Below the pieces are notes generated by a model. The model ran no database searches and was not told where the DNA came from. It was given only the letters and a program-made list of their open reading frames with translations. DNA of 64,000 nt, from NCBI RefSeq assembly GCF_019649055.1, contig NW_026570256.1, positions 930,001 through 994,000 on the forward strand. The letters are read 5' to 3'. Numbering within the stretch: position 1 is the first letter of the stretch; each line of letters opens with the position of its first letter. Shown here in pieces: positions 14,420 to 64,000 of this stretch. This DNA comes from Paramacrobiotus metropolitanus (taxonomy: Eukaryota; Tardigrada; Eutardigrada; Parachela; Macrobiotidae). The position numbers and the translations under genes were made by a program.

Positions 14420-14429
14420 ACCGGTAGTT

Positions 14430-15240
14430 CGTCGATATGTTTTGCAAAGCAGAGATCGGGTCAGACTCAAGCTCGGTGTGAAGGCGAACAGATCGCATTA
14501 GGGAGCAGTGCTTGATAACATAGTTACATTTGTACAAACACCATCTTGCTTTGAAAATTAATCTCGGTACCATTTTCCTTGAACACTCTCCCTGTCTCTC
14601 GCAAAGACAACCTGGCATGAATAACGGTTGCGCTTAGTGCGAAATACAGTATGTACACCGCGGGGGCACAGTTTCAGCGGCTGAACAGATAATCTGAAGT
14701 CCGCTGCCAGCCTGTTGATAACACTCTCACCTGGTCAGTCAAAGCATTAACCGACTGCATAGTGAATAGAAATGTAAACATTTCCATATTTAAACCAAGG
14801 ATGGTGTTGATATTTTCAAGCCACGTTAAATAGTGCCTCCTTCACACAAGTGCGACGTTTGCGACATTTTTGAATGCGATGGGGGAAAATCGTTAGTTTT
14901 ATCGCGAACTTGATACGGTTAGAAACAGGATTTAACTTCTCTCCATTGGGTTTTTGATCACGGACCACGGTGCAGGATTAAGCAACATTCTGATCGCCAT
15001 TTCCCTCCATGCAATGCGTTACATAGATGACCACGCAACTATGCGCACGTAACACGGCAGTAATCAACGAGATTTGCACTTGCAGTTTACATATCTTAGA
15101 CAAACAAAGTTGTTTCGCGCTGTGAGAACATAGGAATTGCCTTGTAATCAATCTTATCTTCCTTGTGACAAACACAATTTCGTCCCAAACCGTCTCACTT
15201 TCTGTTTGTCTCAGTTTTGATTGCTCCATTGTTGAAATTG
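14430..15240 (-). pseudogene. possible decayed gene upstream of galactosyltransferase copy 1
   Basis: The minus strand has several hydrophobic or conserved-looking fragments: MEQSKLRQTESETVWDEIV at 15229, then NINTILGLNMEMFTFLFTMQ near 14800. The same sequence in the other arm (60944-61660) has different stops and indels, so neither arm keeps one frame. It could be a dead membrane-protein gene. Identification is not possible from sequence alone. Confidence 0.3.
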
Positions 15241-43238: not shown

Positions 43239-44204
43239 ATGGATTTCGTGGTGGGCATCCTCCTGCTGAGTGCGGTACGTGATTCAATAAAAACTTGCTA
43301 ATTTTTTCCGGGTGTCTGTGAAAAAACCATGTAATTATGCCGATCGTAACGAAAGAAGAGTGCCTGTCGGGCAGTACTTAAGCTATTATAAGTGTATTTC
43401 TGTAAAAACGTACATACTTGTACAAAAGAAACACTCTACAGATAATCACTAAACTGTTTGTTTGTAAATTTAAAAAAAATTTAATCTAGTTGCTGATGAG
43501 GTATATAGGTTTTCAAGTGGAATTTAATTAACGACTACATCTGTTATCATGGTTTTCGTATGCTCTTACATTTCCTGCAGGTTTACAGCGTTCAAGCGGG
43601 GAATCTGATTACACGCGATGAGTTCCAAAGGGCAGTGACAACCATCGGTTACTGGCGCTACAAACCGCCCACGGATGAACAGTATGAGCTAATTATGCGC
43701 GATGCCGGACCCAAAGGCAAGATCACCACCAAACGGGAACTGGCCATGTTCCTTGCCAATGTATTCCACGAAAGCGAAGGCATGGGGGCCACGGAAGAGC
43801 GAGGACCCAGTGGACCGTATGGGAACTACGTACCGTATGAGAAGAACCCCAACAACCCGGAGCTAAAGTATCACGGGCGCGGTTACCTAATGCTGCGCGG
43901 CTACTGGGCGTATAAGGAAGCCTCACAAGGACTGTACGAGGACAATCGACTGGTGGAGAACCCGGAGCTGGTAAAGGATGCGCCGGCTGCGTGGGACACC
44001 GCGTTCTGGTTCTGGGCCAACAAAGTGCACAACCAGCCCGGTATTGCTGATGGAAAATTCGGTGTCTCAACCAAGGCGATTACCGGTGGCCGGGAATGTC
44101 AGGAGTACGAAGAAATGCCAGAGAGATTGGACATCTACACGAAATTGTTGAGAATCTTCGGTGTGGAAGAGACCGCCAATTATGCTGGATGTTTTAGCGA
44201 ATAA
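43239..44204 (+). CDS. secreted GH19 chitinase-like protein
   Basis: Glycoside hydrolase family 19, which hydrolyses beta-1,4-GlcNAc bonds of chitin by inversion. Exon 1 (43239-43274, MDFVVGILLLSA) and exon 2 (43581-44204) join in phase 0 across GCG|GTACGT and TTTCCTGCAG, giving 219 residues. Residues 1-18 form a signal peptide. The catalytic acid is probably Glu76 in FHESEGMG and the second Glu probably Glu99 in YVPYE, at nearly the spacing of plant enzymes. YHGRGYLMLRGYWAYKEA corresponds to the family's YYGRGPxQLTxxxNY, and AWDTAFWFWANKV and KAITGGREC to its later motifs. There is no chitin-binding domain. Family 19 is best known from plants and bacteria and is patchy in animals, so ancient transfer is possible; the intron shows it is eukaryotic now. 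Roles in cuticle moulting, feeding or defence are all possible. Confidence 0.9.
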
Positions 44205-44209
44205 CTGGG

Positions 44210-44750
44210 GCTAGACTCATGTTGTTTGCTTGAATCAACATTAGAAAGGCGTCTAGTTTAGAATGCCGCTTGGTGTTTATCTAGATCCACCTTTATCACT
44301 TACCAAAATTATGGGTTCATAGACACCAGTTTTACCTGCTTAATTGGAAATAAAAATGAAGTTTTGTTACCTACTTACTTAAGTAACATAAGGCAGTTAT
44401 TACGAGTAACAGTTACGAGTAACAATACAACTCTACGGCGAACAATTCTGGGGCTATTCCTGGAGAATTTGTGAGACAACGCTGGGTAATCCCATTATTC
44501 CCTTGTCTTCGTTTTAATTTCGAAAGCGCCACCTGAGACCGAGATGATTCCCCTGTTGGTTTGATACTGTTCGTATTGACGATGTACTCAAATATGGCAC
44601 AGACAACTGAGAAAATTTTCTCCCAGTACGATCTGTCGAGACAGCGCGTTAACTATCCATGCTTCCATCAAGTTCATGCCATGATTCAACATACAGTAAT
44701 ATGCTTGAATTGATGCAGTGAGAGTTCTCACACAACTTACTGTCAGCACA
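44210..44750. promoter_or_regulatory. intergenic, upstream of receptor gene 1
   Basis: No exon is supported. It is the start of the first receptor repeat unit. Confidence 0.3.
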
Positions 44751-44753
44751 AGC

Positions 44754-46462
44754 ATGGAGAAGGTAGGCGATTACAGGGAAGAAATTGCTGCCGTGTTTGC
44801 TTGGCAAGAAAGCTGTCTGAGGTTGTTCGGCTTCTTATACGTTCGCAATGAAGCGAGCCTCTTCAAAAAGCTGTACAATGTGAGTGCGGCCAGCATTTTT
44901 TTAATCGGCGGGATCTTTTGCGCAATCACCTACGCGCTTTCTCTTATCTGGCTCATCAAGGATAAAATAACGATGTTTGGCACTCCCTTTTTCCTCATGC
45001 TCTCGTATTTACCATACTTCTTCACGAACATCCGTGCTCTGTTTGTTCTGCTGGAGTGCTGGTGTAAACGCGCCCGCTATATCAAATTACAGCAGCAGGC
45101 CGCTGTTCTTCTTGGTCATCACTCAAGACAAGACCTTTTATTGGCCAAAATGCGCCGATGGAAGCATCTGTCTGTGGTGCTCGGGATTGCTTCGTTTCTA
45201 GCCGTGTTGACCTTTGAGGTTGTGGACTGGCTGAGCTGGTTGGATCGCGATCCGCGACGCTGGAATATGGCGTATGATCAGTCATATATGCCCTTACGCA
45301 TTCCAGCATGGTTGTTTATCACTATCTGGGCACTTTTCAATGACTTTCCGTACATTCTCTCACAGCAGCTGTACATCAGTTTACTGTTGTATTCGCGGAT
45401 AATGAAAGAAGCTCTAACTGATATTCACAGCTGTTTACCGGTACGAAATAAGAAGTCATTTGAAGAGGTCACTGGACATCGTGTTGAGGGGAAAACCACA
45501 ATTTCTTACTCGGTAGTAAAAATGCTAAAGCATCGATATTTGGATGTTTTACGCTGTTCTTCGGATTTGAATGATGCATTTGGAAATTCGCTGTTCGTTA
45601 TTTACGGATTGGACTTGCTGGGCATGTGCGGGTTCGTCGCAGCGATAGCAGCCAATGGGGAAACGCAGTTTTCGGCGTACTTGGTGAATTACGTCAGTGT
45701 GGTCGTGTTTTGTGCGTATATCAGCTGCATGGGGCTGATGGCTGGAATGCACGAAGAGGTGACTTTGCACAGCTAACAAACGCCGCTAAATACATCTGTT
45801 AATTCATACGAGTAAACGATACGACAAATATTCGTGCATATCGTAAACCCGTAAGTGTAATGCGGACATTATTACCTAACCGTAAAACGCTTTAAGGTTT
45901 CATGGTTGTAGTGCGAAGCACTTGGTCTGGCGTTATATGAAGCAATGGAGCAGGCAGAAACTGGTTCACAAACGGCAGTCTTTCAGGTATGACATACTGT
46001 CAAGTTGTACTTACATGACGATACTTACTAAAGGCTATTACACTGTCAGGTAGATCTTATTTTTCCGAATGCGGCTGCTTAAAGTTAACAGAAAACTTAC
46101 CCTAATTAAATCCTCGTTTCGTACGGCTTAGCTGGAATCATATATGGGCAGCTTCATTACGCTGGTTCGTGATCATCCTGTAGTATTCAGGGGTGCCGAT
46201 ATTTTCCGTGTTACGCGCAGTTTTCTTGTCGGCGTAAGTACCACGTTAAACTTATAGAACTGGCACGTGCAAACAAGTAGTTGCTTTGCAGACCGTGACC
46301 TTTATCATATCATCTACAATTGTGCTTAGCGAGGTTCTGGAACGGACAAAGAGCACCGAGGAGACGGCAGGCAACCGTAATTTCAGCTGTCATGCCGACA
46401 ATGCCACGGCTGCTCTCATGTATTCACAAGGAATTCATCTGCATTGTAATTCACGATTGTAG
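44754..46462 (+). CDS. gustatory-receptor-like seven-pass protein, copy 1 (type I)
   Basis: Four exons: 44754-45758, 45912-45986, 46132-46233 and 46292-46462, all phase 0, 450 residues. The ATG was chosen because the paralogues also begin MEK-x-x-DY. Exon 1 holds six hydrophobic spans, near SIFLIGGIFCAITYALSL, PFFLMLSYLPYFF, LGIASFLAVLTFEVV, WLFITIWALFNDFPYIL, LFVIYGLDLLGMCGFV and VNYVSVVVFCAYISC. Exon 4 holds the seventh (TVTFIISSTIVLSE), in the place of the TYxxxxxQF helix of insect gustatory receptors. The three 3' phase-0 introns also fit that family. The tail after helix 7 has NFS and NAT sequons, expected if the C-terminus is outside. Probably a ligand-gated channel-type chemoreceptor; the ligand is unknown. 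Confidence 0.75.
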
Positions 46463-46469
46463 CAGTTTT

Positions 46470-47170
46470 GAAAGTTTTATCCGAAAGCGGTGTGTCATTT
46501 TTTAATGCTGTTGTAGCCGCTGATGTCCGTAAATACGGCAAAAACTCAGGCCAACCAGAGCGCTTCAACTTTCCTACTTTTCCTGGCTCTGTCTTCATAC
46601 TCTCGAATTTATACAACCACAACAATCTGTTAAATCTCATGAGCTTAGTAAAACTACTCTATAAAATTAGGTGTATTATGCTTCCTAAAACGCGGATTTC
46701 TCTGTCGCGCTGCTTGATTTCGCGGCTCGCCATTCCTTTAACATTGTATTGTGGATTCCTATGCTGCTACCAGAATCGTGACTGATACAAGTCAAACAAT
46801 TCAGCCAGGATTAAAAGATCTCAAGTTGCGGTGTCGGTTGGGGAAATGGACAACTGCCGCTCTGCACTACCGAATTAAGCAGTCTGTATACGCTTACTCC
46901 CACGACTCTCCTATCTGAAAGGTGTAAGTGGTGTAACTTGAGCCTAAAGGGAAAACTGTCACACTATCTTAGTTTTGAAAACATCCGTGGAGACAAACAT
47001 TGTTTGAGTGAATGCTCGAAATTTTCATTAACTTCAGACTATCCGTATATTCGTAAACGGGCCGCTTAGATTAAGTGGGCTTGGTTAATAGTATTACAGC
47101 TCCAGTATATTACCCTGTACTCGCCTCTAGGCAGTTACGCCGCCTGGGTTTAGCACTGCACCCCAAAAGT
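46470..47170. other. 3' flank of receptor copy 1
   Basis: Non-coding. It is similar to the 3' flank of copy 2 (50.0-50.7 kb): both contain GCCAGGATTAAAAGATC. It is therefore part of the duplicated unit. Confidence 0.55.
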
Positions 47171-47179
47171 TGGAGTAGT

Positions 47180-47362
47180 TATTTTTCGTGATGCGATCCA
47201 TTTTACAGAAGCTTGCATCACTCGAAGTGAAGTGGCAGAATTTTAGCGCTACCCCGCAATATCATACATGATACAGATATGCCCAACTGTAGCACTCGTG
47301 TCGCCAATGCCACGGCAATCCTTTAAACCTTCGCAGATATATCACAAGTTTTCGGAATATGT
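47180..47362 (+). pseudogene. receptor relic: promoter and last-exon tail only (type II)
   Basis: CATTTTACAGAAGCTTGC near 47207 matches the sequence just upstream of the ATG in copies 3 (CATTTTACAAAAGCTTG) and 5 (CATTACACAAAAGCTTGC). Only about 80 bases later, CCAATGCCACGGCAATCC ... ATCACAAGTTTTC matches the end of exon 4 of copy 3. The whole body of the gene is missing. The following 200 bases match the 3' flank of copy 3 (52686-52870). Confidence 0.65.
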
Positions 47363-47599
47363 GTAAGTGGTGATCGAACATATTAAGATAAGCATGACCC
47401 TCTCCTTGCATCACCGACATAAAGAGTTCGACGAATCTGATGGTGTGGTATACTCAACACTGTGTAGGACATGCAAAGAATTCACTGACAAACCCCGAGA
47501 TGCTGAATCTCATATTGTCTGCAAGCATCGGAATTCACCGGATTTATTTTCGGTTGTAAGCTGTAACCAGTAATATTTCAAGCCGAATGCACTGATTGT

Positions 47600-48270
47600 T
47601 ATTGTCGCAAACAAACGGCTTTTCGTGATAGCAGCCAGTGTTCAACTGTGACGTAATTTACAAGCACATTTTCGTTTGTAGCAGCACTGAACTTGATAGC
47701 AGCTTAGTGCGACGCTTTTAATATTTGCCTTATGTCTTGAGGACACTTGATGTGACCACTTTCCATGACGAGAGGTTGTTAAATCATCAATGTATTAGTT
47801 CTGACTTCTACTGTATGCAACGTAATAATATGAAGTTTAACGAAAGAAGCAGAATCTCTATATATACAACTGCATGTGTCATTGCTCTGACATGTACATA
47901 GAATAATTGCCAGCCATTCTGTTTCAAACCCTTTTGGCAAAAGGAAGCAATATGAGCGCAATGTGAGTGTTGAAGAGAGGAAGCCTCGTTGACACTCCAG
48001 CGTTACATTAAATGAATTACGAACCGCCTAGTGATTTCACTGCAAGCTGTGCAATCGAAAGCGTTGGCAAAAAGCAGCAACAAAAAAAAAATAAAATATA
48101 TATGGTTTGACAGCGTTTATTCTGGTCGTCTGACCAAATATGCGGCAAACTTGTTGTAGAGTTTCCGCTGGCTTGAACACTGCAACGCGACGGTGCAGTG
48201 TCCGTCACGACAACTAAAAATACTACGACATACTCCGTAGATGAATGCAGTGATAGCTTCCCATTCTCTG
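47600..48270. other. intergenic, homologous to 52.9-53.5 kb
   Basis: No exon. GGTTTGACAGCGTTTATTC (48103) and GCGGCAAACTTGTT (48142) recur upstream of copy 4 at 53319 and 53356, so this is conserved upstream sequence of the type I genes. Confidence 0.5.
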
Positions 48271-48274
48271 AGTC

Positions 48275-49978
48275 ATGGAGAAACCCTACGATTATAAGAA
48301 AGAGGTTGCTGCCTTTTTTGCTTGTCAAGAACGCTGTCTTCGATTGTTTGGCTTCTTATCCGGCGCCGGTGAACAATTAAAGCTCTTTAACAAGGTGTAC
48401 GGTGTCACCGTGGTCAGCTTTTTTGTAATCGGTATGGTGTTTTGCGCTACAAACTACGCGCTTGTCCTTGTTTGGGTCATCAAGGTTTGGGTCCTCGTTT
48501 GGGTCGTTTGGATAAAATTGTGACTGTTGGTACTCCCTTTTTCCTCATGCTCTCGTATTTACTATACTTCTTCGGTAACATCCGTTCTCTCTTTGTTCTG
48601 CTGGAATGCTGGTGTAAACGCACCCGCTACATTGCGTTACAACAACAGGCCGCCAACCTTCTTCGACACTATTCAAAACATGACCTGTTACGGAGCAGAA
48701 TGCACCGATGGAAGCAGCTGTCTGTGGTGTTTGGAGTTGGTTCATTTTTAGCCGTGTTGGCGTTTGAGATTGCGGACTGGCTGAGCTGGCTGGATCGGGA
48801 TCCGCGGCGCTGGAATATGGCGTATGATCAGTCAATTATCCCTTTACGCATTCCGGTGGGGTTGTTTATCGCTGTTTGGGTACTTTTCAACACTTTTCCG
48901 TATTTCCTCTCACAGCAGCTGTACATCAGTTTATTGCTGTATAGCCGGATCTTCAAAGAGGTTTTTGACTGATATTCGTTGCTCTTTATCGGTGCGGAAC
49001 AAGAAATTAGGCGAACGGGCTGGGATGAAAACAAAAATTTCTTACCGGGAACTGAAAATGTTGAAGCTGCGCTATTTGAATGTTTTACGCTGTTCCTCGG
49101 ACCTGAATGGTGCATTTGGAAATTCACTTTTCGTTATTTACGGATTGGACTTGCTATCCATGTGCGGCTTTGTCGCCGCTATTGCAGGCAATAGGGACTC
49201 ACTTCTTTCGACGTACTTAGTGAATTACGTCAGTGTGGTCGTGATGGCTGGGTGCATCAGCTGCATGGGACTGATGGCTGGAATGCACGAAGAGGTGACC
49301 GTACTCGGCCACTAATGGCGCCTACAAATACCGCGTCTCTGTTTATTTGTGTCCACATTAATGATGGCACTAATACTGGTGCATGTCGTAAAAGTGAAGC
49401 CAGGGCATTATTTTACTGGACGCTTTACAGTGTCGTGATTGTAGTGCGAAGCGCTCCGTCTTGACTTACATGAAGCAATGGAACAGACCGAAACTGGTTT
49501 AGAAACGGCAGTATTTCAGGTATAACAAAATTTTGGATTTCTTTACTTTTCGGAATAACGAGAAACTGCGGCCATTAAAAGCGAATAAAAGAACTGGATC
49601 AGGTAAACATTTGTATTTTTGTGTTCTTTGCGGTTTAGGTGGAGTCGTACGTGGGCAACTTTATTATGCTAATTCGTGATCATCCTGTTGTATTCGCGGG
49701 CGCAAATATTTTCTTTGTTACCCGCAGTTTTCTTGTCGGCGTAAGTACCGTGTTTAAGTAACTTTTACTGGTAGAACTGGTACAAGTAAACAAATAGTTC
49801 ATTTTTGCAGACTGTGACTTTTATTATATCATCAACTATTGTGATAAGCGAGATTTTGGAACGGACAACAAGCACTGATGCGGCAGCACCGCCAGCAAGC
49901 AACCGTAATTTCAGCTGTCACGTCGTCAGTTCCACTGCTGGTCTTCAAATACTCACAATGAATTCACCTGCGTTTTAA
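48275..49978 (+). pseudogene. gustatory-receptor-like protein, copy 2 (type I), two frame breaks
   Basis: Exon 1 48275-49294, then 49445-49519, 49639-49740 and 49811-49978, with the same exon sizes (75 and 102) as copy 1. About 26 bases made of repeated GTTTGGGTC are inserted near 48485-48510 after the first helix. One extra base in GAGGTTTTTGAC near 48966 shifts the frame back. Translation from the ATG would end at 48523. All other sequence, including the splice sites and TVTFIISSTIVISE, looks functional, so the lesions are recent or partly assembly errors. Closest to copies 1 and 4. Confidence 0.75.
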
Positions 49979-49984
49979 TTGACT

Positions 49985-50820
49985 ATCGGAAGAGTCTGAA
50001 AGTGTTACTCGTAGTTAGAAAGTCTTGTGTCCATTGAAATACTGTAGGTGCGGCGCCAGTGAATATACGGACGAGAAAACCGGCAGATAATCAGGCCAGT
50101 ACGAGGACAAGAAAGCGTTTCGACTTTCGGATTTTTCCTTTTCCTGTCTCCATATTCTCCAATTTACGAAACCAAACGTAACTTTTAAACCCTCATGGCT
50201 TAGCAAAACTTCACTATAAAAGAAGGCGTACAGATATCATGCTTACCAAAATACAAATTTCTTTTTTCCGCTGCATTTTTTCGCTATTGCTTTAAAGCTT
50301 TAATTCCTTCCACTTTTACTACCAGAATCATGAGTTAAGGAAGTCAGAAAATGCAGCCAGGATTAAAAGATCGACTTGCTGTGTCTTTCAAAGTAGCGAA
50401 CAATTACGCTTCTGTACTAAACGGTTTGTACTCTACAACTTTGTACATGTCTACTTGCATGACGCTTCTGTTTGCAAGGTGTAAATGGTTTTGCACTTTA
50501 GCTTAAGCCTTCAGGGAAAACTTTCACGCTTTTTAATTTCTGAAAGCATCCGTTGAGACAAATATTATTTTGCGTGAATGCTCCAAGTTTGTACTGAATA
50601 TTGACTATCTGCGCAAATGTGCAGCTCCAATATCTATCCGGATAGTGTATGCACTAATGTATTATTCACTAGCCGGCATCAGTACAGCTTGGTTTGAGCA
50701 CAGCGCCCAAAACAAAAAATATTTGATTTTCAGAAGATAAAATAAAATAGCTGCTTTTCAGCGACGCAGTCCATTTTACAAAAGCTTGAATTAATCGGTA
50801 TGGCAGCTTTTCTGCACTGT
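49985..50820. other. intergenic between receptor copies 2 and 3
   Basis: Non-coding. Its left part is homologous to 46.5-47.1 kb, and the last 60 bases are conserved upstream of copies 3 and 5 and in the relic. Confidence 0.5.
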
Positions 50821-50825
50821 TAGCC

Positions 50826-52685
50826 ATGAATAAACCAGACGATTTTATGGCTGAAATTGCGGCAGTTTTTGCTTGGCAAGACCGTTGTCTAAGACTATTC
50901 GGCTTCTTATGGGATGAGAAGGAGACATCGAAGCAAATCACGAAATTATACAGTCTGACTATGGTCAGCTTTTTCTTAATCGGCGGTATATTCTGCGCTG
51001 CCAGCTACGTTATTTGTCTTGCTTGGATGATTCTCACTAAGACCACGATGGCCACCACTCCATTTTTTACGATGCTCTCGTATCTTCCGTATTTTTGCAC
51101 CAGCATCCGTGCGTTCGTTGTATTGGTGGAATGCTGGCGGAAGCGCCACTATTTTGCTGCCTTGCAAAAACACGCAGCTGCACTTCTTCAACAGCATTCT
51201 CGTCACGACCTTTTATTGGTAAGAATACGCCAGTGGAGACTTTTGTCGGCGTCGCTCGCGATTGCTTCATTTGTGGCCGTGTTGGCCTTTGAAATTGTGG
51301 ACTGGTGGAATTGGTTGGAGAGAGACCCGCGCCGGTGGAATATGGCGTACGATCAAGCGTTTCTGCCCTTACGCATCCCGGCATGGTCATACATCACAAT
51401 CTGGGCATTGTTCAGCGCATTTCCCTATTTCTTATCCCAACAGCTTTACATTAGTTTACTGTTGTATTCTCGTATTTTTAATGAGGTGCTAAAGGACATC
51501 CGTTGCTGTTTGCCCTTCCGCAACAAAATGTTGCCGAAGCTCGGCCAAGGAAAACATGGTGAAACGGTCGCTAAGGCGAAAACAACAATTACTTACGAAG
51601 AACTTAAAGTGCTGAAGCAGCGTTATTTGGATGTTCTGGATTGTTCCTCAGGCCTGAATGCGGCATACGGAGGGGCATTATTTGTCATTTATGGATTGGA
51701 TTTGTTATCCGTCTGTGGATTTGCTGCCGCGATTGCCGCCAACGAGGAACCGTTTTTCCTGTCTATGATGGTGAATTATTTAAGCATAATTGTGATGGCC
51801 GGATACATCGGCTGCATGGCACTGATGGCTGGAATGCACGAAGAGGTATCTTGCATGTAATTGTCGTTTTGAATATCCTTCATATTCTTCTCATAGTAAA
51901 CCACAATCCGTGAGCTTTTCCTCGTCAGTGTATCATCTGTTAATAATAGAAAGGGCTTTCTGCGCGATAGCAAACGATTGCTGCATTACGGTAAACTATG
52001 TAAAATCACCAAAAAGTTTGATACAGCTAACGCAATTATTATTATTTACTCCGCTTAAAATTTTAATAATAGAAGTGGTGATTACAGTTTACAAATAAAA
52101 ATCGGGGAACTTGCTGGGTTGATATCATGTAATTATCATAAATTGTCTCCAGAAGGACTCCATTGTAGTGTGGAGATCTTGGTTTAGCGTTGCACAATGC
52201 AATGGACCAGGCGAAAACCGGCTCAGAGACAACCACCCTTCAGGTATGACACACATTTGGATCTTTAAGTAACAGGAAAATTAGGAAATAGATGTATTAT
52301 TAAAACGAGTGTCATAAACATCTACTCTAGACTTACTGTGGTTAGGTGGAAACATATGTGAGCAACTTTATAACGCTGATTCGTGATCATCCTATCATCT
52401 TCACCGGCGCAAATGTCTTCCATGTCACCCGTAATTTCTTAGCTGGGGTGCGTGTTTATGTATCTGGTATTTCTACATTTGAACCTAACTCTTGCTACTG
52501 ACGCTGCCAAACCACCCGTTGTATTGCAGACTGTGACCTTTATCGTCTCCTCGACAATTGTTCTTAACGAGATTATGGGCCGCACAGCCACCACCATGTG
52601 TCCGTTAATGATCAACTGTTGCTGTCCGGGCGCTAATGTCACGGCAGTCCCTGAAACTTTCGCACAAAAGTCACAAGTTTTCTAG
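50826..52685 (+). CDS. gustatory-receptor-like seven-pass protein, copy 3 (type II)
   Basis: Exons 50826-51845, 52169-52243, 52346-52447 and 52530-52685, all phase 0, 450 residues, intact. The type II signature is FMAEIAAVFAWQDRCLRLFG and LWDEKE, shared with copy 5, whereas copies 1, 2 and 4 have DYKKEVAA or similar. Helix 7 reads TVTFIVSSTIVLNE, and the tail has CCCPGANVTA with one sequon. Intron 1 is longer (323 bases) than in type I. The same chemoreceptor inference applies. Confidence 0.75.
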
Positions 52686-52689
52686 TCAG

Positions 52690-53510
52690 TCTGATTTATG
52701 ATAAAACAGGATCGACTACTTGCATCATCGATGTAACCAGTTCGACGCATCTGACGGCGTGGTATACCAAACACTATTTAGTACTGTACATGCAGAGGAT
52801 GAGCTGATGCTGTTTGCAGGCATCGGCTTCATCGGTTTTGAGTTCAGGTTCAGTTGTAACCAGCAATAACAGAGGTCGTTTTTCCTTTTCCAGCTGCTAA
52901 AAATTCCCGGTTTACTGTGATCGGCAGGGGTTGGAATATAACTACTTACAGTTTTGTTATTGTAACAAACAAAATGATGTCTTTTCCAAACAACTGCTAA
53001 GGTTTAACTCTAATAAATTTCTTTCGTAGTAGGATTCACCTTTAAAGTAGCTTTTTACGATGTTGCAGTTTTGTTATTACAAGTCGCCCGCCTTGAGACG
53101 ACTATTTTCCTTGACGTAAGGACGTAATCATCAAAAAGTCATTATTACGCAGCGTGATATTCTGACGTTTAAAAAAGATCTAGAAAGCAGAATCTCCATG
53201 AAGTATGCATGAGGCATTTGTTCTGGCTTGTAAATAGAATTTTTGTGGCAGCGTATGGGTGTTGAAATTCAGCGCGGAAATGCCGCGTCGGCTGACATAA
53301 CAACACTATACCCGATGGTTTGACATCGTTTATTCTGGTCATTTTTCCAAACACGCGGCAAACTTGTTTGAACAATCGTTGCTATTTTCGCTGGGTCTAA
53401 CAGTGGGACGTGACGGTGAAATGTCCATAGGTAGCTTCATGCCACAACTAAACATACTTGTACTTCAAATGAAGTATTCGACGCTAAATTCAGTTAGAGA
53501 GTTTTAACAA
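52690..53510. other. intergenic between receptor copies 3 and 4
   Basis: Non-coding. The left part resembles 47.36-47.6 kb and the right part 48.0-48.27 kb, consistent with tandem units. Confidence 0.5.
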
Positions 53511-53519
53511 CACAAAGAC

Positions 53520-55267
53520 ATGGAGAAACTACACGATTATAAGAAGGAAGTTGCTGCCATTTTTGCTTTTCAAGAACGCTGTCTACGATTGTTCGGCTTC
53601 TTATCCGGCACAAGTGAACAATTATCTGTAAATCCATGGAAAAAGCTATACAGTGTTAGCGTTGTCAGCTTTTTCTTAATAGGTGGTTGGTTTTGCGCGA
53701 CAAACTACGCAGTTTATCTTATTTGGATCATCAAGGTTAAATTCACTAGTATTGCTGATACTCCATTTTTCATCTTGCTCTCGTTTTTACCATATTTCTT
53801 CAATAATATCAGGGCTCTCTTTGTTCTATTGGAATGCTGGCGCCAACGCAACCGATACGCCGAATTACAGCTGCAGGCCGCGGATCTTCTTCGACATCAT
53901 TCAAGACAAGATGTTTTGGTGACCAAAATGCGCCGATGGAGGCAGATGTCTGTGGTACTCGGGGTTGGAGCGTTTTTCGTTGTGGTGGCCTATGTTATTG
54001 TGGACTGGCTGCGCTGGTTGAATCGTAACCCGCGACACTGGGATATGACCTTCGATCAAGCGTTCCCGCCTTTACGCATTCCGACATGGTTGTTTATCAC
54101 TATCTGGTCACTTTTCAGCGCCTTTCCGTATTTTCTCTCACAGCAGGTGTATATCAGTTTGCTTTTATATACCCGGATACTAAAAGAAATTTTAAAAGAT
54201 ATTCAGTGCTGCTTACCGTGTTGGAGCAAGACAGTATCGTTCGAACAAGCATTTGGAAAGCGCTGCAAGGAAGTGGCCAAGTCAAAAACAACAATTTCTT
54301 ACATGGAACTGAAAGTATTGAGGCAGCGTTATCTGGATGTTCTACGCTGTTCTGCAAACCTGAATGCAGCATATGGCAATTCGCTGTTTGCTATTTACGG
54401 ACTGGACTTGCTTGCAGTTTGTGGATTTATTGCTGCGATTGTGGGCAATGGAGAAACATTTCTTTTTGCGTACTTGGTGAATTATTTTAACGTGATGGTG
54501 ATGGCTGGGTACATCGGTTGCCTAGGACTGATGGCTGGAGTGCACAAAGAGGTCACCATACAGGGTTACGAAACCTTCTGTAAAAGTATATCTATATATG
54601 CGTACAAATCACATATAACTTAAAGGCTAAAGCTGTTGAGTTAAAAAGAAAGCTGTAGTAGAGCATTAGCGAAAACCGCTTTATATGGTTGTAGTCCGAA
54701 GCGATCGGTTTGGCGTTACATGAAGCTTTGGACCAGACGGAAACCGGCTCTGAGAAGGCTGTCTTTCAGGTAAGACACAATGTTCTTTCTGGCTGCTTGA
54801 ATTTAGAATTATATGGGGACTGAAATTAGAATAACGTATAGAGAACCTGAAAACATGTACTTGCTCCATTTCTCGGTTTTCGATAGGTGGAATCGTATGT
54901 GGGCAACTTTGCAGCACTGGTTCGGGATCATCCTGTAGTATTTAAGGGTGCAGACCTTTTTCATGTTTGCCGCAATTTTCTTGCAGGGGTAGGTACTGAG
55001 AGTACCGTATTTACCACATAAGAAATCGAATAAAAGTGCAAGTAGTGAAACTAGTTATTACTGGTGCCTGAACTAACTCTGGCAAAATGATGTGTTATGT
55101 TACAGACCGTGACCTTTATCATCTCAACCACAATTGTGCTTAGCGAAATTTTAGATCGGACAGAAACCAACACTAATTTATCAATTTGGAACTGTAGTTG
55201 TGACAGCCGCTTTGCCAGTGCAACACCTGCTCCTCAAATTTTCACGGGAAATTCATCCGGTTTTTAA
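53520..55267 (+). CDS. gustatory-receptor-like seven-pass protein, copy 4 (type I)
   Basis: Exons 53520-54551, 54695-54769, 54887-54988 and 55106-55267, all phase 0, 456 residues, intact. It begins MEKLHDYKKEVAAIFAFQ. Exon 2 reads SEAIGLALHEALDQTETG and exon 3 VESYVGNFAALVRDHPVVF. Helix 7 is TVTFIISTTIVLSE, with tail sequons NLS, NCS and NSS. This is the cleanest of the type I copies. Confidence 0.75.
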
Positions 55268-55269
55268 CT

Positions 55270-56020
55270 GACAGTTTGGACAACATCAGTATCTGTAGCT
55301 GTACTCACCGCGATAGTTCTGATGTCAGTGGCTATGGTCAGTACTAAGGGCAGAGCATTGTATGAGCGCTTTTACAAGTGCTGGACCTTTCGAAGCCGTT
55401 CATTGTATTTTTCTCCCTCGAATTATTCAATAATTACAGTAGATTTATGATCACTAACCACAAAAACCATGTGACAGAATTTTTAAAGATGCTGATTCTG
55501 ACCGCCTGGGTTTATTTTATTAAGTTTTTGTTTCATCTGTTCAGAGGTTGCGCCGTTACGGGTTTCGTAGTTGGAACTTGGAGCATCGATCTCTTTCCTT
55601 GATGTGTTAAGAGATTAATGAATTTAGATTACTAAAAGCCAAGTTTCCCTACCCGCTCCACATGCCACACGGTTTACAGTTACGAAAAATCATTCGCATG
55701 CCCTACTCGCAATATACCTACGGTTAATTGAGCTCCCACGATCTGAAGAAAAACTGTTAAGCTTTGTAATTTTTGAAAAGGTCGATTGAGACATTTTCTC
55801 CGTAAAAGTTCGAGAATGTTTGTACACTTGTACTGATTATTGACGATTTCTGCAAATGGGCTGAGCGCATATCATTCTATTTGGGTACGTACTCCATATT
55901 TTCAACTTGGCATCCATACCGCTTTGTGTAAACACTACACCCGAACTTTGGAGAAGATGCTTTTGCGTTAATTATTCCATTACACAAAAGCTTGCGGTCA
56001 GCGAAACGGGTTTTGGCGCT
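55270..56020. other. intergenic between receptor copies 4 and 5
   Basis: No supported exon. The region just before 56028 carries the type II upstream motif ACACAAAAGCTTGCGG. Confidence 0.5.
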
Positions 56021-56027
56021 AATAGCC

Positions 56028-58187
56028 ATGGAAAAATCAGGCGATTTTATGGCTGAAATTGCGACAGTTTTTGCTTAGCAAGATCGATGTCTCAAGCTAT
56101 TCGGCTTCTTATGGGATGACAAGGGACCATCAAAGCAGTATAAGAAATTATACAGTTTGACTATGGTCAGCATTTTCTTAATAGGTGGTACATTGTGCGC
56201 TACTACCTACGTTTTTTGCATTGCTTGGATGATTCTGAATAGGACTTCTAGAGACAGCACTCCGTTTTTTACCATTCTCGCCTACCTGCCGAATTTTTGC
56301 ACAAGCATCCGTGCGCTCGTTGTGCTGCTGGATTGTTGGCATAAGTACCACTATCACATTGCCCTGCAACGGCACGCTGCGGATTTTCTGCAGCACCATT
56401 CAAGACATGACGTTTTAATGGGTAAAATGCGCCGGTGGAGATTGTCGTCTATGGTGCTCGCGATTGTTTCGTTTGCCGCTGTGCTGACTTTTGAGGTAGT
56501 GGACTGGTTAAGCTGGCTCGAGCGCGATCAACGACGTTGGAATATGGCGTTTGATGAAGCGTTTATGCCCTTACGTATTCCGGCGGGGTTGTACATTACC
56601 ATTTGGGCGCTATTTAGCGCTTTTCCGTATTTTTTGTCACAACAGGTCTACATTAGGTTACTACTGTATGCAAGCATTTTTAAGGAAGTGTTAAAAGATA
56701 TTCACTGCTGTTTACCCGTCCGGGAAAAACTACTGAAATAGGCACAGGGAAAGCGTCCCAAAAATATTACCATGGCGATAACAATAATTTCTTACCCGGA
56801 GCTGAAAATGTTGAAGCGACGTTATTTGGATGTTCTGGATTGTTCTTCGAGTCTGAATAATGCATACGGACGTGTTCTGTTTTTCATTTACGGATTGGAT
56901 TTGCTAGCAGTCTGTGGATTCGCTGCCGCCATTTCCGCCAACGTGGAGCCATTTCTCTTTGATGTATTGGTTAATTATATTAGTATCGCTGTGATGGCTG
57001 GATACATCGGCTGCATGACAGTAATGCCTGGGGTGCCCAAACAGCTGATCTGGCAGTCATCCATCGAGTACAAAAGTATTTATTCGTACCAAAGTAAACC
57101 ATACTTCTGTACATACAGAGTACTGTATTTTATGTATTCTTCAAAAGCTTCTTAACTGAATAAGCCAATATTAATACAAAAAAAATCAATTAAAACGTCA
57201 CGCGATAATGATTAATGGAAATACCGGTATCTGTGCAGTGCCAGGTACCGAAATAGGGCTCCGGAATGGCACCGTAATTTGGGCGTTGTTGTAGGCATGT
57301 TTATTTTTGTGCATTCAAAAAAATCTGTGCATTCTAAAAAAATTTTGCAATTTTGTGCCTTATGCAACCAATATTGTATGCACTGCCATGCCAAAAAGGC
57401 CGCCTTTATGCGCGCATCAGCTGACTGCTTGTGCTATGGCAAATCAAAAATGACAAAAAGTTCCAACGTGTGCTGGGACAGCCCAAAGCCCAAACTGCTA
57501 TTTAACCCGTTTAAAATTACCATGTATGATTATAGAAGCAATGTTATGAATATAATTCTGTGGAATGTACGTAATACGAGGATGATACCATATGCCAAGC
57601 CAATATTTTCTTTAAAAGGTTTTCGTTTCAGTGTGAAGCTATTGGTTCAGCGTTGCACAGTGCAATGGAGCAGATGGACCCCACTTCCGAGGCATTTGCC
57701 CTTCAGGTACACAGGAACAGATTTTATGAGCCCTTCGCACCTAGGAGTAGATTTTATGAGAGTCCGAAGTATCTGGCAAGAACAGTATTACAAACTGTTG
57801 TACCACAGTTATACTACTTCTTGGCTTATTGCGGTTAGGTGGAATCGTTCATGGGCGACTTTATAACGCTGGTTCGCGATCGTCCAGTAGTGCTCTCCGG
57901 CGCGGATATATTCCATGTTACCCGCAGTTTCCTCGCTGGGGTGCGTGATAATTCATCTTTTTTATTTGTCGATGTATCCAAACTTGGTTGATGACATCCA
58001 TACAGCAGTCGTTCTGTTACAGACTGTGACCTTTATCGTCTCGTCGACAATTGTTCTAAACGAGATTATAGACCGCACAGCCAGCTCTGGTTCTTTAACG
58101 ACCAATTGTAGCTGTCATGCCGCTAATTCCACGGCTGTGCTTGAAATCTTTCCTGGAAATCATAAGGTTCCCGAATTAGGTGTTTGA
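56028..58187 (+). pseudogene. gustatory-receptor-like protein, copy 5 (type II), dead
   Basis: Aligns with copy 3 through all four exons (56028 to about 57044, 57632-57706, 57839-57940, 58023-58187). There are stop codons at codon 17 (TAG 56076-56078, where paralogues have Trp) and at 56739-56741. The intron 1 donor is lost: CAG|CTG at 57045 where the others have GAG|GT. A 424-bp insertion lies in intron 1. Exons 2-4 keep open frames and good splice sites. Three independent lesions make this a true pseudogene rather than an assembly error. Confidence 0.85.
57173..57596. mobile_element. 424-bp insertion with 11-bp target duplication
   Basis: AAGCCAATATT occurs at 57162-57172 and 57597-57607, flanking sequence absent from the other receptor genes. 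There are no inverted ends. The left edge is A-rich (TACAAAAAAAATC). Its size and long duplication fit a SINE-like retroposon. I see no clear tRNA promoter boxes. Confidence 0.55.
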
Positions 58188-58189
58188 TG

Positions 58190-60050
58190 GTAATATAAAT
58201 TAGGAAACCACTGAAACCGAAGGCGGAGGAGCTATGGCGCGAGCAAAGCGAAGCGAGCGGAGCAGCAAGTTTCACGAAAAGACTAATGCCATTTTGTTAG
58301 CACATACAGTCTTTCGCTTTTTTTATCTTTATATTACCGTCACAATATTTACTAAAACTAAGTGTTTACTAAAACCAGGATGGAAGAATTAAAAAGTGAT
58401 AGTTTCGTAAAAAACAAGCATTATTCATTCTTTAGGGAGAAAGGCTCTTTTGGAGATCAATGCGAACGGTCATTAATTACCTGTTACAGACATTCGTATT
58501 CGCCGAAGGTGAATTCGAGACACCATGTCGACGTCCTCAATGTCGACTCCCTCCCCACTCCCTCTGTATAAAACAAATTGAACCAGGCATATGATCCGGT
58601 ATCCATATAATATAACCGTATCGGTATCCATATAACCAACGCCATTTTTAGTACATGCATTGCAAGCGAGCCGGTACAATTTAAGTGATTGTAACGTCTG
58701 CAATCATCGCGACTCACCGGCTTTGTTTTCATTTACAGTCAATGTAGTCCATCTAGGCCATTCTGATTATTTATCTGTGGGAAATTCCCAATCTTATCGA
58801 TACAGACTGGGAACAGTAGTTTTGTAACCTGGTGTGAGAATTGTTCTTATGTTGTAGTGAAAGCAGCGATTGTCTTTTACTGTTAGCTTTGTCGAGGTTC
58901 AAGTCTGATAAAAGTTACGAAGGAAAATTCGTATGGAGTAGCTTCGAGGCAGCGGCATGCATGTAGTGTAAATCCATGTACTGTATGTACTGCACGCAGG
59001 CTAACGCAGCTGTTCGCGGCATACGGTCTTAATAATTTCGTAAACTTCATCCATGAACCGTGACAATATTGCGTTAAGCCAAAGGAGCAGAATCTTCAAA
59101 TACAGTTCATGTGTCTCTGCTCTGGCTTGTTCATACAATGAATATAAATTATCGCATTTCTACTGACTTTTGCTACAGACCTACAATTACTGTAAATCAC
59201 AAAGTAAAGACTTCGACAATAAGTAGGTTGCGTTTTGCACGGCCGGACGATTAACGGCAAAATTAACGACAGTTTTGGCGTTGTTAATTTAAGGCTCCGG
59301 TGATTCGCATAAGAGATTGCGTTATGCACTAAACAATTAACAGCGATAGATATTAGCGTGGCGAACTGTTGTGTTTTGACAGTCATTTTTCAATTTTTTG
59401 TATCGATACCGAAACGATTTCATGTTGCACCGTGAAAGTAACAGAATAAAGATTTTTTGTGGTAGAAAAACATAAGGTTAACAGTGGCGTTAACACGTGT
59501 ATGAACGTTTTCACGCAAACACTATTCTAAAGCAGTGTTATCCACTTATTCCATTCTTGAATACAGGACTTCGTTTCTCAGAGGCCTCAGTACAGTCTCC
59601 GTATACTGCTACTCCAATAGTAAACTACTCGAATTACTGTATTTTATTATATGGAATAATTTTTACAATTGTGAAAGTTAAAGTAAAAAGTAAGCCATAT
59701 AAGTGAAAAGTTTAAAGAGACCATTGGCAGCACTAACATTCGAGCAGTACTGTTGTGATTTTCGAAAAATTCGAGTCGAGTGGGCAACTCAGGACTGAAT
59801 GCCCAGGCAGAAATTCACTGGGTACACTGTCTCGCCTGCGCACTCTTCGTGCTCAATGGTCTATATGGGCCCAGTCGTTCATTACTAAATTTCAACGTCG
59901 TTATTAACGAAACGATACCCCCTTCGTTTCGTTAATAACGACGGGTACTGCCGTTTAAACGTTCGTTAATTGTACTCCGTCGTTAATTCTATCGTCAATC
60001 GTACCCCTTCGTTGATACCGCAACCTGCTTAATAAGTTTCCGTGCGCACT
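58190..60050. other. intergenic; receptor-unit remnant and a long hairpin
   Basis: No gene is recognised. About 59040-59150 (AAGGAGCAGAATCTTCAAATAC, TCTGCTCTGGCTTGTTC) is homologous to 47.83-47.91 and 53.18-53.25 kb, marking the right edge of the third receptor unit. A perfect hairpin lies at 59896-59943. Confidence 0.5.
59896..59943. other. perfect 20-bp hairpin, 8-base loop
   Basis: CGTCGTTATTAACGAAACGA, loop TACCCCCT, then the exact complement. Related GTCGTTAAT words follow to about 60020. Confidence 0.8.
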
Positions 60051-60057
60051 GAACCCA

Positions 60058-60758
60058 TTACAAAGCTTGGTATAATCCAAAAGCAGCGAGTCCCATCACC
60101 AGCGCTGTACCACCACCGCGTGTCTTGGATGCCGCGTTGCAGTAATCCGTATCGCAGTAGCAGGCTTGTCCGGTTGTGCCGCTATCGGTTGTTATAGTAG
60201 GCCCGCATGTCATTGCGGCGCCCCAGTTTACGCAGCCCTTCAGAATTATTGCTGCAAATTGAAAGGGGCGCCGTAAATATCACTCTCAGCAATGTGCACT
60301 GGCGGCACAATTCTAAATCTTGTACGTACTTGTGCCATTTCCGGTGATTGTTTCCTTGTAGCAAGCTGGACGGTACGCTACACTGAGATTGAACTGATCT
60401 GGAGGACCGATTATTGTTTCGTTATTGGCGCATGCCTCTTGGACTTCATCGGTGTATTGCAGCTTGTGGTAGCAGGTCAACGAGAAAGTTTGACCTATTC
60501 CAGCTTTAAAGGTTAGGCTGGTGCAAGTGCTACGGTTAATTGTATGGCAAACAGAACTACAGCAACTGATCGCATAGTTTGCAGCACTTTAAGACACCTC
60601 TTTCTGTGTTTTAGCAATACATAAACGATAGCAATACAATACATAATGCGAAAGGTAAGGCGGCATGTTGACAAGCAAAGCAAATGACAGCACTTACTGA
60701 GACTTAGTCCGAGTACAACTACAGCAAGCATACAGAATTTATAAATAATCGAAGCCAT
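60058..60758 (-). CDS. Ly6/uPAR (three-finger) GPI-anchored protein
   Basis: Small cell-surface protein of the Ly6/three-finger fold. Exon 2 (about 60523 to 60330) reads CTSLTFKAGIGQTFSLTC, EVQEACANNET and RPACYKETITG. Exon 3 (60251-60058) reads LKGCVNWGAAMTCG and ends CYCDTDYCNAAS, the signature C-x-C-x-x-D-x-C-N of the family, followed by TRGGG and a hydrophobic tail (TALVMGLAAFGLY) that fits a GPI signal. Exons 2 and 3 join in phase. The 5' end is unresolved: signal-like starts exist at 60758 (MASIIYKFCMLAVVVLG, needing a weak donor) and near 60578 (MRSVAVVLFAIQLTVALA, one base out of frame with the mature protein). Its role is not inferable; relatives regulate receptors or septate junctions. 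Confidence 0.8.
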
Positions 60759-60943
60759 TGTTATTTATATCGCTTGCCCAAAGCAAGAATTGTGTTACAT
60801 AAAATTTAAAGAGCGAGACAAAGTACGACAAATGGATGATCGGCAGTGCCGTCGTAGAGAATTTGACAGCATTATAAGCCTGCACTCACAATGCTTATAA
60901 GTCTCTTATCAAGGAACTAAGAAACCTAAGATGCGTTGAAAAC

Positions 60944-61660
60944 AATGGAACAGTCAAAACTGAGACAAACAGAAAGCGATAAGTAATCATAAGTTGTAGG
61001 ACAAATTTGTGTTTGTCGCAAGAAAGATAAGACTTATTACCGGACAATCCCTACGTTCTCACGGACGACAAAACTTTATTTGTCTATGATAAACTACAAA
61101 TCTCGTTGATTACTACCATGTTACGTGCGTATAGGTACCCGGTTATCTATGTAATGCACCGTATGGAGAGAAATGGCGATCAGAATGTTGTTTAATGTTT
61201 CACCGTGATCAAAATCCACTGGAGGGAAGTTAAGTCCTGTTTCCAACCTTATCAAGTTTGCGATAAAACTAACTATTTTCCCGAATCGCATTCAAAAATG
61301 TCACAAACGTCGCACTTGTATGAATGAGCCGCTATTTAACGTGGCTTGGAAATGTCAACACCATTCTTGGTTTAAATATTATGGAAATGTTTACATTTCT
61401 GTTCACTATTCAGTCGGCTGATGCTTTGACTGAGAATATTATCAGCAGCGGACTTCAGATAGTCTGTTTAGACGCGAAAACTACGCCGCCGCGGTGTACG
61501 AGTACATATTTCGTGCTAAACGCAACCTAATTCATGCCAGTTATCTTTGCAGAGACAAAGAGAGTGCTCAATGAAAATGTTACCGAGATTAATTTTCAAA
61601 GAAAGATTATGTTTGTGACTTTGTTATCAAGCACTGCTCCTTAATGCGATCTGTTCGCCT
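60944..61660 (+). pseudogene. decayed upstream gene, right-arm copy
   Basis: Counterpart of 14.43-15.24 kb. MEQSKLRQTESDK ends at once in a stop. A 68-codon ORF at 61324-61530 contains a hydrophobic stretch (NIMEMFTFLFTIQS) but differs in frame from the left arm beyond it. The product is unknown. Confidence 0.3.
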
Positions 61661-62170
61661 TCACACCGAGCTTGCCTTTGACCCGATTGCTGCTTTACAA
61701 ATATCGATGAACTACCGGTTGATCACACTAGTATTAGGTCACATACCTAATCAGCCCTGGTAACAATATCTTCATTCGCACCCCGGTCTTCGGCAATCAC
61801 GCAAGGAAAGCGCCTGATAATTCGATTGCTCATCATCAAGCAACAGAAGTGTATTGGATCTGATAGAACGACTGCGTGACAGCGATTACTTTTTGATCGA
61901 TCGTTTCTACTTTTCTACTGGGTTTTAAAACTACGAAATTATGATCACATTTTTCCTGGACCACCTTGAAACAAGGTTTTAAATGAATGTATTTTTGTGT
62001 GAAATTCAGACCATTGCGGTTTATTTCATTAGGGACTGTCGCTCAAGCTCTCAAAGCAAATAATTATCACCACGTATACGGGTGTGTCACTTTTGCACAA
62101 AACACTGGTCTGATCATTTTGTGTGATGTGTTAACTAAGCGTCACTGACGATACACCGATACAGCGAACT

Positions 62171-63887
62171 ATGTCTAATGGGAATTCTTCCTGTCTTCTT
62201 CGCACCGGTTTTGGTAAGAATCTCCCCTTGCTCCTGTTGTGTTGCGCATTATTTCTGGCAGTCTTCTACTTGTGGTACATAAACGGACCTCGTCAAAAGT
62301 GTCCGAATTTCGCCGCTCCCGTGATTATTATAAGGAAAGACGTTTTTTGCAACGAAAGTGGTTTCTTTGACTCACTGACCCAACGCTCAGTTAAACTGAT
62401 TGCGTTCTACGGTGGCAGCGATATGATAACCGCCACCGGCAGCGTACCAGTGTGCGAGGCGAAACCCAGTACATTGATGGGCCGACGAAATATTTCGAAG
62501 TAAATAAAATCCGACGAGGAAATTGAGGCTGAGAATCCGCATGTGAAACAGGGCGGCAGCTATCGCCCGAAGCACTGTGTCCAGCGAGGTCGAATAAAAG
62601 TGGCGGTGGTGGTGGCCTACCGGAACCGCACGGAACATCTGCGTAGGTTATTGGTTGTTTTCAGCGGAGCACTGACTGCAATAATCGAAGTAACGCTTTG
62701 ATAGTTGCAGGTATTTTATAATTTACGATTTGTAGAAATTTTGCTGAACAATCTACATCCGTTTCTTCAACGACAGCAGCTAGACTACATCATTTTTGTT
62801 GCGGAACAAGCCGGGAACACAACATTCAACCGAGGTAAAGGAAACAATAATGCCATGACTTTTATTGTTGGAAAACGTTTATGGTATGGGTCAAAACAGT
62901 GTGAAGTAAATCCAATGTGAGTGTAACTTTGCTGAACAAAATGCCGTAATCGGCAATGAGACTTAATCATAGTGGCCCATTTAGGTGTCCCTACAGTCCC
63001 GTTAATGTCCGTTGGCCGTTCCAGTAGCTTTTGGGCTTTTATTAACGTTAAGGTTTGATTCTGTGCTCTTAATTGTTAGGCAAACTTTTCAACGCGGGGT
63101 TCCTAGAGGTCAACAAATTTCCCGGTTACAGTTGTTTTGTGTTCCATGACGTAGACCTCTTACCGGAAAACGACCATAATTCATACTTTTGTCCCACGAT
63201 ACCGACTCTTTTAGCCAGTGTGATGGATAAAAATCAGTACAAGCCGTATTACGGCAATTATTTTGGTGGAGTTGTATCATTTGCTCGCCGTCATTTCCAG
63301 CAAATCAACGGTTTCTCCAATGTTTACTGGGGCTGGGGTAAGCCATTATACTAGAAAATTGTGTACAGCGTTTTTGTTGATAGTAAAACGGAAAGAAAAA
63401 TAAATCGGAACACTAACATGCATTGTACGCTTGAGATTTCAACCAGTGCGCTGTGTGCAACAGAACTAATAAATCCGCTTTTCAATAAAGCGCTTTTAGT
63501 AAGATTGTTCACAATGTACGAGTAGAATTACACAGGGGTCGGCGAAAGTAGTATTATGCTATGTTATAAAATTAATAGGTATTGACCCCATCAAAAGTAA
63601 AACAACGTTTAATTTTTTATGGTTCTGAAGACGATGACTTGGGCGCGCGGGTCCGGACGAAGCTGGGGAAGCCCGGAAGAATGCCCTTCGACATTGGCCG
63701 GTACACCATGGTTAAGCACAACAGAGATCCTAGCAATCCAACCAATCCCAAACGTCATGAACTAGCCAAAAACGCCGCACAGAGAATGGAGATCGATGGC
63801 TTGTCGAATGTCAATTATACGGTGTTGCATTCCGAGCTGCGGCCACTGTACACTTGGATTCTGGTGGATCTGGGTAAACCACCGTGA
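62171..63887 (+). pseudogene. beta-1,4-galactosyltransferase family, copy 2 (dead)
   Basis: Exons 62171-62642, 62736-62834, 63080-63337 and 63622-63887 correspond base for base in length (472, 99, 258, 266) to copy 1. The signal anchor, NPHVKQGGSYRPKHC, LQRQQLDY, FHDVDLLPENDHN, YWGWG and SEDDDLG are all present. An in-frame TAA at 62501-62503 follows RRNIS. The last intron ends TTTTATG|GTTCTG where copy 1 has TTTAAAG|GTTCCG, so the AG acceptor is gone. Two unrelated lesions argue for loss of function. Exon 3 is intact here and broken in copy 1. Confidence 0.85.
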
Positions 63888-64000
63888 CTCGTTATCGTTC
63901 CAGTTGGGTCGAGAAAACTGCCAAAGTTGTTAAAATTTGCTCAGATAAAGTGTGCTCCAAAAATGTCATTGTATGGTACAATACTGTATACAACAATACT

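Follow-up and report, generated by a model that had tools for sequence, protein, structure and literature searches.

Alternating insect-type gustatory receptor array in Paramacrobiotus metropolitanus: copying of a gene pair and a probable hybrid gene

How six tandem gene slots came to alternate between two related types, and whether single genes or whole gene pairs were copied on the way, is the question raised by a locus of the tardigrade Paramacrobiotus metropolitanus (RefSeq assembly GCF_019649055.1, contig NW_026570256.1, positions 930,001 to 994,000 of the forward strand). This whole stretch of 64,000 nucleotides is called the window, and positions are counted from its first letter. It contains an array of insect-type gustatory receptor (Gr) genes at 44.55-59.18 kb, in which six slots, all on the + strand, follow each other head to tail and alternate between types I and II. 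An earlier note on this DNA had read the array as a two-gene unit copied three times. The self-comparison of 40-64 kb recovered the six slots at the starts given there and in the same alternation, and the copied unit is the pair of one type I and one type II gene. However, three copies correspond to two copying events, the block copied in the younger of them probably does not reach from the start of one gene to the end of another but has both its ends within exon 1 of a type I gene, and only three of the six slots hold an intact gene. The features of the array are as follows.

44555-44753, + strand: P1, upstream region of I-1, with which the array starts on the left; from about 44552 rightwards it can be aligned with P2 and P3, and the flank to its left matches no spacer.
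44754-46462, + strand: I-1, intact type I receptor of 450 amino acids; exons 44754-45758, 45912-45986, 46132-46233 and 46292-46462, no stop, 7tm_7 match above the cut-off.
46386-47187, + strand: A1, I-to-II spacer in unit 1, whose first bases are still part of I-1 exon 4; matches A2 (z 43) and A3 (z 11) but no II-to-I spacer.
47165-47480, + strand: type II relic; 5' untranslated region (UTR) 47165-47261 joined to exon 4 tail and 3' flank 47267-47480.
47500-47943, + strand: B1, II-to-I spacer in unit 1; similar to B2 (z 11.4) and B3 (z 5.3) but to no I-to-II spacer.
48106-48274, + strand: P2, upstream region of I-2; I-3-like by site counts.
48275-49978, + strand: I-2, type I pseudogene with a mosaic site pattern; exons 48275-49294, 49445-49519, 49639-49740 and 49811-49978, frame broken.
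48378-48544, no strand: support interval of the switch in I-2 from the likelihood profile; the sequence resembles I-3 before it and I-1 after it.
49920-50760, + strand: A2, I-to-II spacer in unit 2, whose first bases are still part of I-2 exon 4 (spacer shuffle test).
50826-52685, + strand: II-1, intact type II receptor of 450 amino acids; exons 50826-51845, 52169-52243, 52346-52447 and 52530-52685, 7tm_7 match above the cut-off.
52860-53270, + strand: B2, II-to-I spacer of unit 2 (spacer shuffle test and site counts).
53311-53519, + strand: P3, upstream region of I-3 (alignment and site counts).
53520-55267, + strand: I-3, intact type I receptor of 456 amino acids; exons 53520-54551, 54695-54769, 54887-54988 and 55106-55267, 7tm_7 E-value 7.8e-14 for the spliced protein.
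55200-55970, + strand: A3, I-to-II spacer in unit 3, whose first bases are still part of I-3 exon 4 (spacer shuffle test).
56028-58187, + strand: II-2, type II pseudogene; exon-equivalents 56028-57044, 57632-57706, 57839-57940 and 58023-58187.
58760-59180, + strand: B3, spacer of II-to-I type after the last type II gene, with which the array ends on the right; similar to B1 and to B2, at z 5.3 in both cases.

The spacers alternate together with the genes. Eight spacer and flank segments were compared in 28 pairs, each against 40 dinucleotide shuffles; the I-to-II segments in this test contain the last 59-77 bp of type I exon 4. The six pairs of same-type spacers gave z scores of 5.3 to 43, the nine pairs of a I-to-II with a II-to-I spacer gave -1.0 to 2.0, and the 13 pairs that included an outer flank gave -1.1 to 3.9, where the value of 3.9, obtained for B2 and the left flank, is due to the type I upstream block that sits in both segments. 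The right flank (59200-60060) did not match the spacers (z at most 2.0). Since the type I upstream block is the only part of the outer flanks with a counterpart in a spacer, the edges of the array were placed near 44555 and 59180. The intergenic correspondences proposed in the earlier note were all recovered, namely 46.5-47.1 kb with 50.0-50.7 kb (z 43), 48.1 kb with 53.3 kb (48106 and 53311), and 47.85 kb with both 53.2 kb (z 11.4) and 59.1 kb (z 5.3), the latter two also matching each other at 5.3. The match of 47.4-47.6 kb with 52.7-52.9 kb appeared as a separate alignment up to 47480/52799 and, beyond that, within a long blastn alignment.

Sensitive blastn aligned genes and spacers continuously, pairing 44753-47187 with 48274-50731 (70%), 44552-47216 with 53311-55995 (63%) and 47267-51909 with 52595-57107 (64%), so that like units are colinear over 2.5-4.8 kb through gene and spacer. 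The same search returned two weaker long alignments in the other register, at 59% and across unlike spacers (e.g., 49438-51847 and 52162-54553), which we attribute to the homologous exons on either side, because the unlike spacers alone show no match. In the trees, II-1 and II-2 grouped together with support values (Shimodaira-Hasegawa-like approximate likelihood-ratio test, SH-aLRT/bootstrap) of 99.9/100 in the N-terminal segment of exon 1 (hereafter N, to about codon 70), 100/100 in the rest of exon 1 (hereafter C) and 99.4/100 in exons 2-4. The outcome that would have spoken for adjacent type I and II genes as closest relatives was looked for, and the two topologies tried that mix the types, one of them joining I-2 with II-1 and I-3 with II-2, were rejected by the approximately unbiased (AU) test in all three segments (p 2.5e-5 or lower). 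Types I and II must themselves stem from a single-gene duplication, and on that ground the entire array could be derived from duplications of single genes with later shuffling, the alternation being due to chance. This derivation is contradicted by the alternating spacers, the colinear alignments and the rejected mixed trees, and we give it practically no credence; copying of the pair, which the earlier note had preferred to copying of single genes, accords with both the grouping of type II copies and the agreement of spacers by type.

The six slots differ in their state. I-1, II-1 and I-3 are intact, I-2 and II-2 are pseudogenes, and at 47.2 kb a former type II gene survives as a relic with hardly any of its coding sequence left. 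Each of the intact genes has four exons and three introns, all GT-AG and in phase 0, with no internal stops; splice sites were set by eye and by conservation. Two insertions in exon 1 break the frame of I-2, one of 26 bp (48484-48509) and one of 1 bp (about 48962), and its exons read in series contain three internal stops. II-2 carries two in-frame stops and has lost the exon 1 donor, with CT where GT is expected. The relic, suspected from the letters alone at 47.18 kb, proved real: its 5' side is the type II 5' UTR up to about the start codon, its 3' side is the type II exon 4 tail with the 3' flank, and for each arm none of 200 mononucleotide shuffles reached the score obtained against II-1 or against II-2. 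About 1.8 kb of the type II coding region is gone, and a comparison of the relic with the II-1 body gave no recognisable match, as 129 of 200 shuffles scored as high. A tblastn search with three exon 1 proteins and an exon 3-4 peptide as queries brought up no further receptor in the window; outside the array, no hit had a better E-value than 0.17.

The assignment to the receptor family is based on Pfam profile 7tm_7 (PF08395). Three of the four exon 1 open reading frames (ORFs) given exceeded the cut-off of 26.6 bits, with 38.2, 34.9 and 43.3 bits; the fourth, at 12.3 bits, is a piece of the broken II-2, and I-2 was not in the set. All three spliced proteins (I-1, I-3 and II-1) matched the profile, with a best E-value of 6.7e-16. 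The addition of exons 2-4 lifted I-3 to 52.2 bits over profile positions 9-363 of 370, which supports the splicing. The intron trait of the Gr family described in passages of two papers (PMC9998090, PMC2680840) is present in I-1, I-3 and II-1, the last intron lying just before the exon for the seventh transmembrane segment (TM7). According to the same sources, the TM7 motif is placed six codons after the last intron (PMC2680840), and its canonical letters TYhhhhhQF are typical, not strictly defining, with variants in true Grs (PMC9998090). The position fits in the tardigrade genes but the letters do not, since six codons past the last intron a by-eye alignment gives SSTIVLSEV in I-1, STTIVLSEI in I-3 and SSTIVLNEI in II-1 in place of the canonical ones. 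An exon 1 structure model built from three sequences had a mean predicted local distance difference test (pLDDT) value of 45.6, too poor for a fold search, and sequence searches of PDB gave no useful match (best E-value 0.14, an unrelated antibody chain). Relatives were confirmed neither among eight pattern matches in viral contigs (query I-3 exon 1) nor among five in genome contigs (query II-1 exon 1). The surviving genes I-1, II-1 and I-3 would, by inference, act as ligand-gated taste-type receptors.

The order of copying can be read from informative sites, i.e., those at which two of three copies agree. Units 1 and 2 are closest in exon 1 after the switch described below, in introns with exons 2-4 and in spacer A. 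I-2 agrees with I-1 at 113 sites and with I-3 at 63 in exon 1 C, and at 124 and 54 sites, respectively, in introns and exons 2-4; spacer A has 207 sites for the I-1 and I-2 units and 90 for the I-2 and I-3 units. The relic tail shares 54 sites with II-1 and 18 with II-2, with 29 for the remaining pairing, and spacer B gives a weak signal in the same direction (B1 and B2 81, other pairings 56 and 61; p 0.03). Because units 1 and 2 pair in exon 1 C, exons 2-4, spacer A, the relic tail and, weakly, spacer B, unit 3 would have split off first, and units 1 and 2 would have separated later.

The 5' part of I-2 gives a different grouping. I-2 looks like a mosaic, in which the upstream region and the first ~70 codons are I-3-like, while most of the rest is I-1-like. 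Upstream, 40 sites join P2 with P3, 17 join P1 with P3 and 11 join P1 with P2, and in N I-2 agrees with I-3 at 31 sites and with I-1 at 14. The likelihood profile places the switch best at 48526/48527, with a log-likelihood gain of 19.6 and a support interval of 166 bp. When the informative sites were permuted, the observed run was reached in 0 of 100,000 replicates, and with three other alignment modes it was reached in 0 of 20,000 each time; exon 1 alone gave a Fisher p of 8e-5. Among C sites polarised by type II, 28 join I-1 with I-2 and nine support each of the other pairings, and the AU test rejects I-2 with I-3 in exon 1 C (p 0.02).

Several results weigh against a simple mosaic. The N-segment tree, based on a short segment, joins I-2 with I-3 at only 88/85 (SH-aLRT/bootstrap), and the AU test rejects neither I-1 with I-2 (p 0.18) nor I-1 with I-3 (p 0.08) there; for exons 2-4 it narrowly keeps I-2 with I-3 (p 0.054), and the Shimodaira-Hasegawa (SH) test gives no rejection either there or in exon 1 C. 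Counts in 60-column windows reveal three short stretches, in I-2 or just before it, that do not fit, and because of them the picture of one switch is not clean: the last ~45 bp before the ATG favour I-1 (11 sites against 4), 48635-48695 favours neither parent (4 against 5, with 12 sites common to I-1 and I-3), and 48995-49085 is balanced (11 against 13). Private changes are most numerous in I-1, both upstream (40, against 17 and 11) and in N (31, against 16 and 14), and a local speed-up of I-1 would yield part of the mosaic signal. The private changes, together with the AU result that keeps I-1 with I-2 in N, are what would be expected if there were no mosaic at all, the pair having been copied twice in the order ((U1,U2),U3), where U stands for unit, and the upstream region and N-terminus of I-1 having evolved two to three times faster. 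Such a fast I-1 is, however, at odds with ten type II-polarised sites in N that join I-2 with I-3 and set both apart from I-1 and type II (the other pairings have 4 and 3), and with the motifs SG..EQL and CATNYA, which are common to the I-2 and I-3 translations and occur in neither I-1 nor type II. We regard it as quite unlikely and decide for a mosaic, a choice that is inferred and not proven.

The polarity of I-2, with N like its right neighbour I-3 and C like its left neighbour I-1, agrees with a duplicating unequal crossover between I-1 and I-3. In the model of such a crossover, as outlined in a passage of PMC6060901, the middle gene begins with sequence of its right parent and ends with that of its left one. 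The history that we consider probable on the whole would begin with the duplication of a single insect-type gustatory receptor gene into types I and II. In an older event, the I-II pair with its spacers (about 5 kb) would have been duplicated in tandem, giving unit 3 on the one hand and the ancestor of units 1 and 2 on the other, with a junction at which the spacer after II meets the region upstream of I. In a younger event, the left type I gene would have paired with the right one, I-3, at matching exon 1 sites around codons 35-80, and unequal crossover would have produced three units, the middle I-2 being a hybrid with upstream region and N-terminus from I-3 and the remainder from I-1. The block copied would be roughly 44959-48486, now also present as 48513-53733. 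Birth and death would later have thinned the array, as almost the entire coding region of one type II gene disappeared and frameshifts or stops arose in I-2 and II-2.

The same mosaic would arise if the pair had been copied twice whole, with breakpoints between genes, and gene conversion by I-3 had later overwritten the upstream region and N-terminus of I-2. The age of the two halves bears on this choice, since a single crossover would make both halves of I-2 and the co-copied spacers equally old, whereas conversion needs an extra event and predicts a younger divergence of I-2 from I-3 in P and N. The divergences found are alike: in N, I-2 and I-3 have a synonymous divergence (Ks, given throughout without standard errors) of 0.50, in the other segments I-1 and I-2 have 0.51, 0.45 and 0.52, and the identity of P2 and P3 (107/154 sites) is in line with that of A1 and A2 (476/701). 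Conversion may nevertheless occur in the array, as is suggested by the small patches that contradict a single switch and by the uneven divergence of II-1 and II-2, whose Ks along the gene is 0.42, 1.48, 0.66 and 0.43; the two are unusually alike at the N-terminus, where 50826-51032 and 56028-56234 differ by a Ks of only 0.42, whereas the middle of exon 1 reaches 1.48. This unevenness may reflect other conversions in the array and counts against the crossover history as outlined. So do the modest Ks contrasts (0.65 for I-1/I-2 in N; 0.58 for I-1/I-3 against 0.51 for I-1/I-2 in the first part of C) and the identity of B1 and B2 (219/365), which lies below that of A1 and A2, though one event predicts equality. 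Taken together, we consider conversion as the source of the hybrid unlikely and favour the crossover.

I-2 was probably not dead at birth. Over the 300 codons of the C part and exons 2-3, it has 24 private amino-acid changes against 20 in I-1 (25 unassigned) and 18 private synonymous changes against 16 (22 unassigned); in the 68 codons of N, the amino-acid changes are 7 against 3 in I-3 (10 unassigned), too few to weigh. The ratio of nonsynonymous to synonymous divergence (dN/dS) for I-1/I-2 is 0.26-0.31 outside the N-terminus, and within N it is 0.36 for I-2/I-3 and 0.45 for I-1/I-2. With these ratios and no clear excess of amino-acid changes, I-2 evolved much as its intact sister did and was probably a working gene that died late. 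GTTTGGGTC occurs twice within the 26-bp insertion of I-2 and a third time shortly before it, at 48470; the insertion lies inside the switch interval. It was considered as a scar of the crossover and rejected, as I-2 was probably alive at birth, which makes later slippage more likely. It is quite possible, although we lean slightly against it, that the crossover-born hybrid was a working taste receptor, combining the promoter and N-terminal part of one gene with the ligand-pocket and pore part of the other, and that it was under selection for the greater part of its existence, before the late frameshift. If this were true, the copying of gene pairs in Gr arrays would be a direct way to recombine expression pattern and specificity.

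The receptor array sits between two inverted copies of a beta-1,4-galactosyltransferase-like gene (Glyco_transf_7N, 7C), at 11549-15233 (- strand) and 60941-63949 (+ strand), whose DNA pieces are 78-83% identical. Directly to its left, an ORF at 43509-44204 (+ strand) resembles class I chitinases of glycoside hydrolase family 19 (GH19; PF00182, E-value 5.6e-15); the usual chitinase family of animals is GH18. A gene for a berberine-bridge-type flavin adenine dinucleotide (FAD) oxidase is present in pieces at 39029-41834 (- strand; FAD_binding_4, BBE), and 60058-60764 (- strand) may encode a small quiver/Ly-6-like protein, with a match under the Pfam cut-off. At the left end of the window, identical + strand ORFs at 36-373 and 6755-7092 form a direct repeat, 6.7 kb apart, and an ORF at 1679-2251 (- strand) has a match to the CAP (cysteine-rich secretory protein) domain (E-value 7e-8).

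The array is a case of ordinary gene-family growth by events of known kinds, and a clear new example that is unusually well preserved. Breakpoints are usually erased when tandem receptor arrays grow; here the spacers, the outer edges and a probable hybrid survive, so that a two-step history can be read at one locus, and block duplication could supply the body of one receptor with the promoter and start of a different one. No hybrid Gr was described among the titles and abstract openings listed, which is not meant as a claim that none has been published. Clusters of tandem Grs that include pseudogenes, attributed to birth and death, are described in passages on Daphnia pulex (PMC2680840) and Spodoptera (PMC9339325), the latter suggesting unequal crossing over via short interspersed nuclear elements (SINEs) as a possible driver. 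The array of P. metropolitanus resembles them in consisting of tandem related Grs, pseudogenes included. Unlike the arrays in those passages, it has a two-gene repeat unit, alternating spacers and one probable hybrid between genes. Genes made hybrid by unequal crossing over form a known class, as stated in a passage of PMC6060901. Unlike the hybrids of the unequal-crossover (Gehring) model, whose parents are adjacent genes, I-2 would descend from the type I members of neighbouring pairs, and as these parents are not adjacent, a whole type II gene and both spacers would have been copied along.

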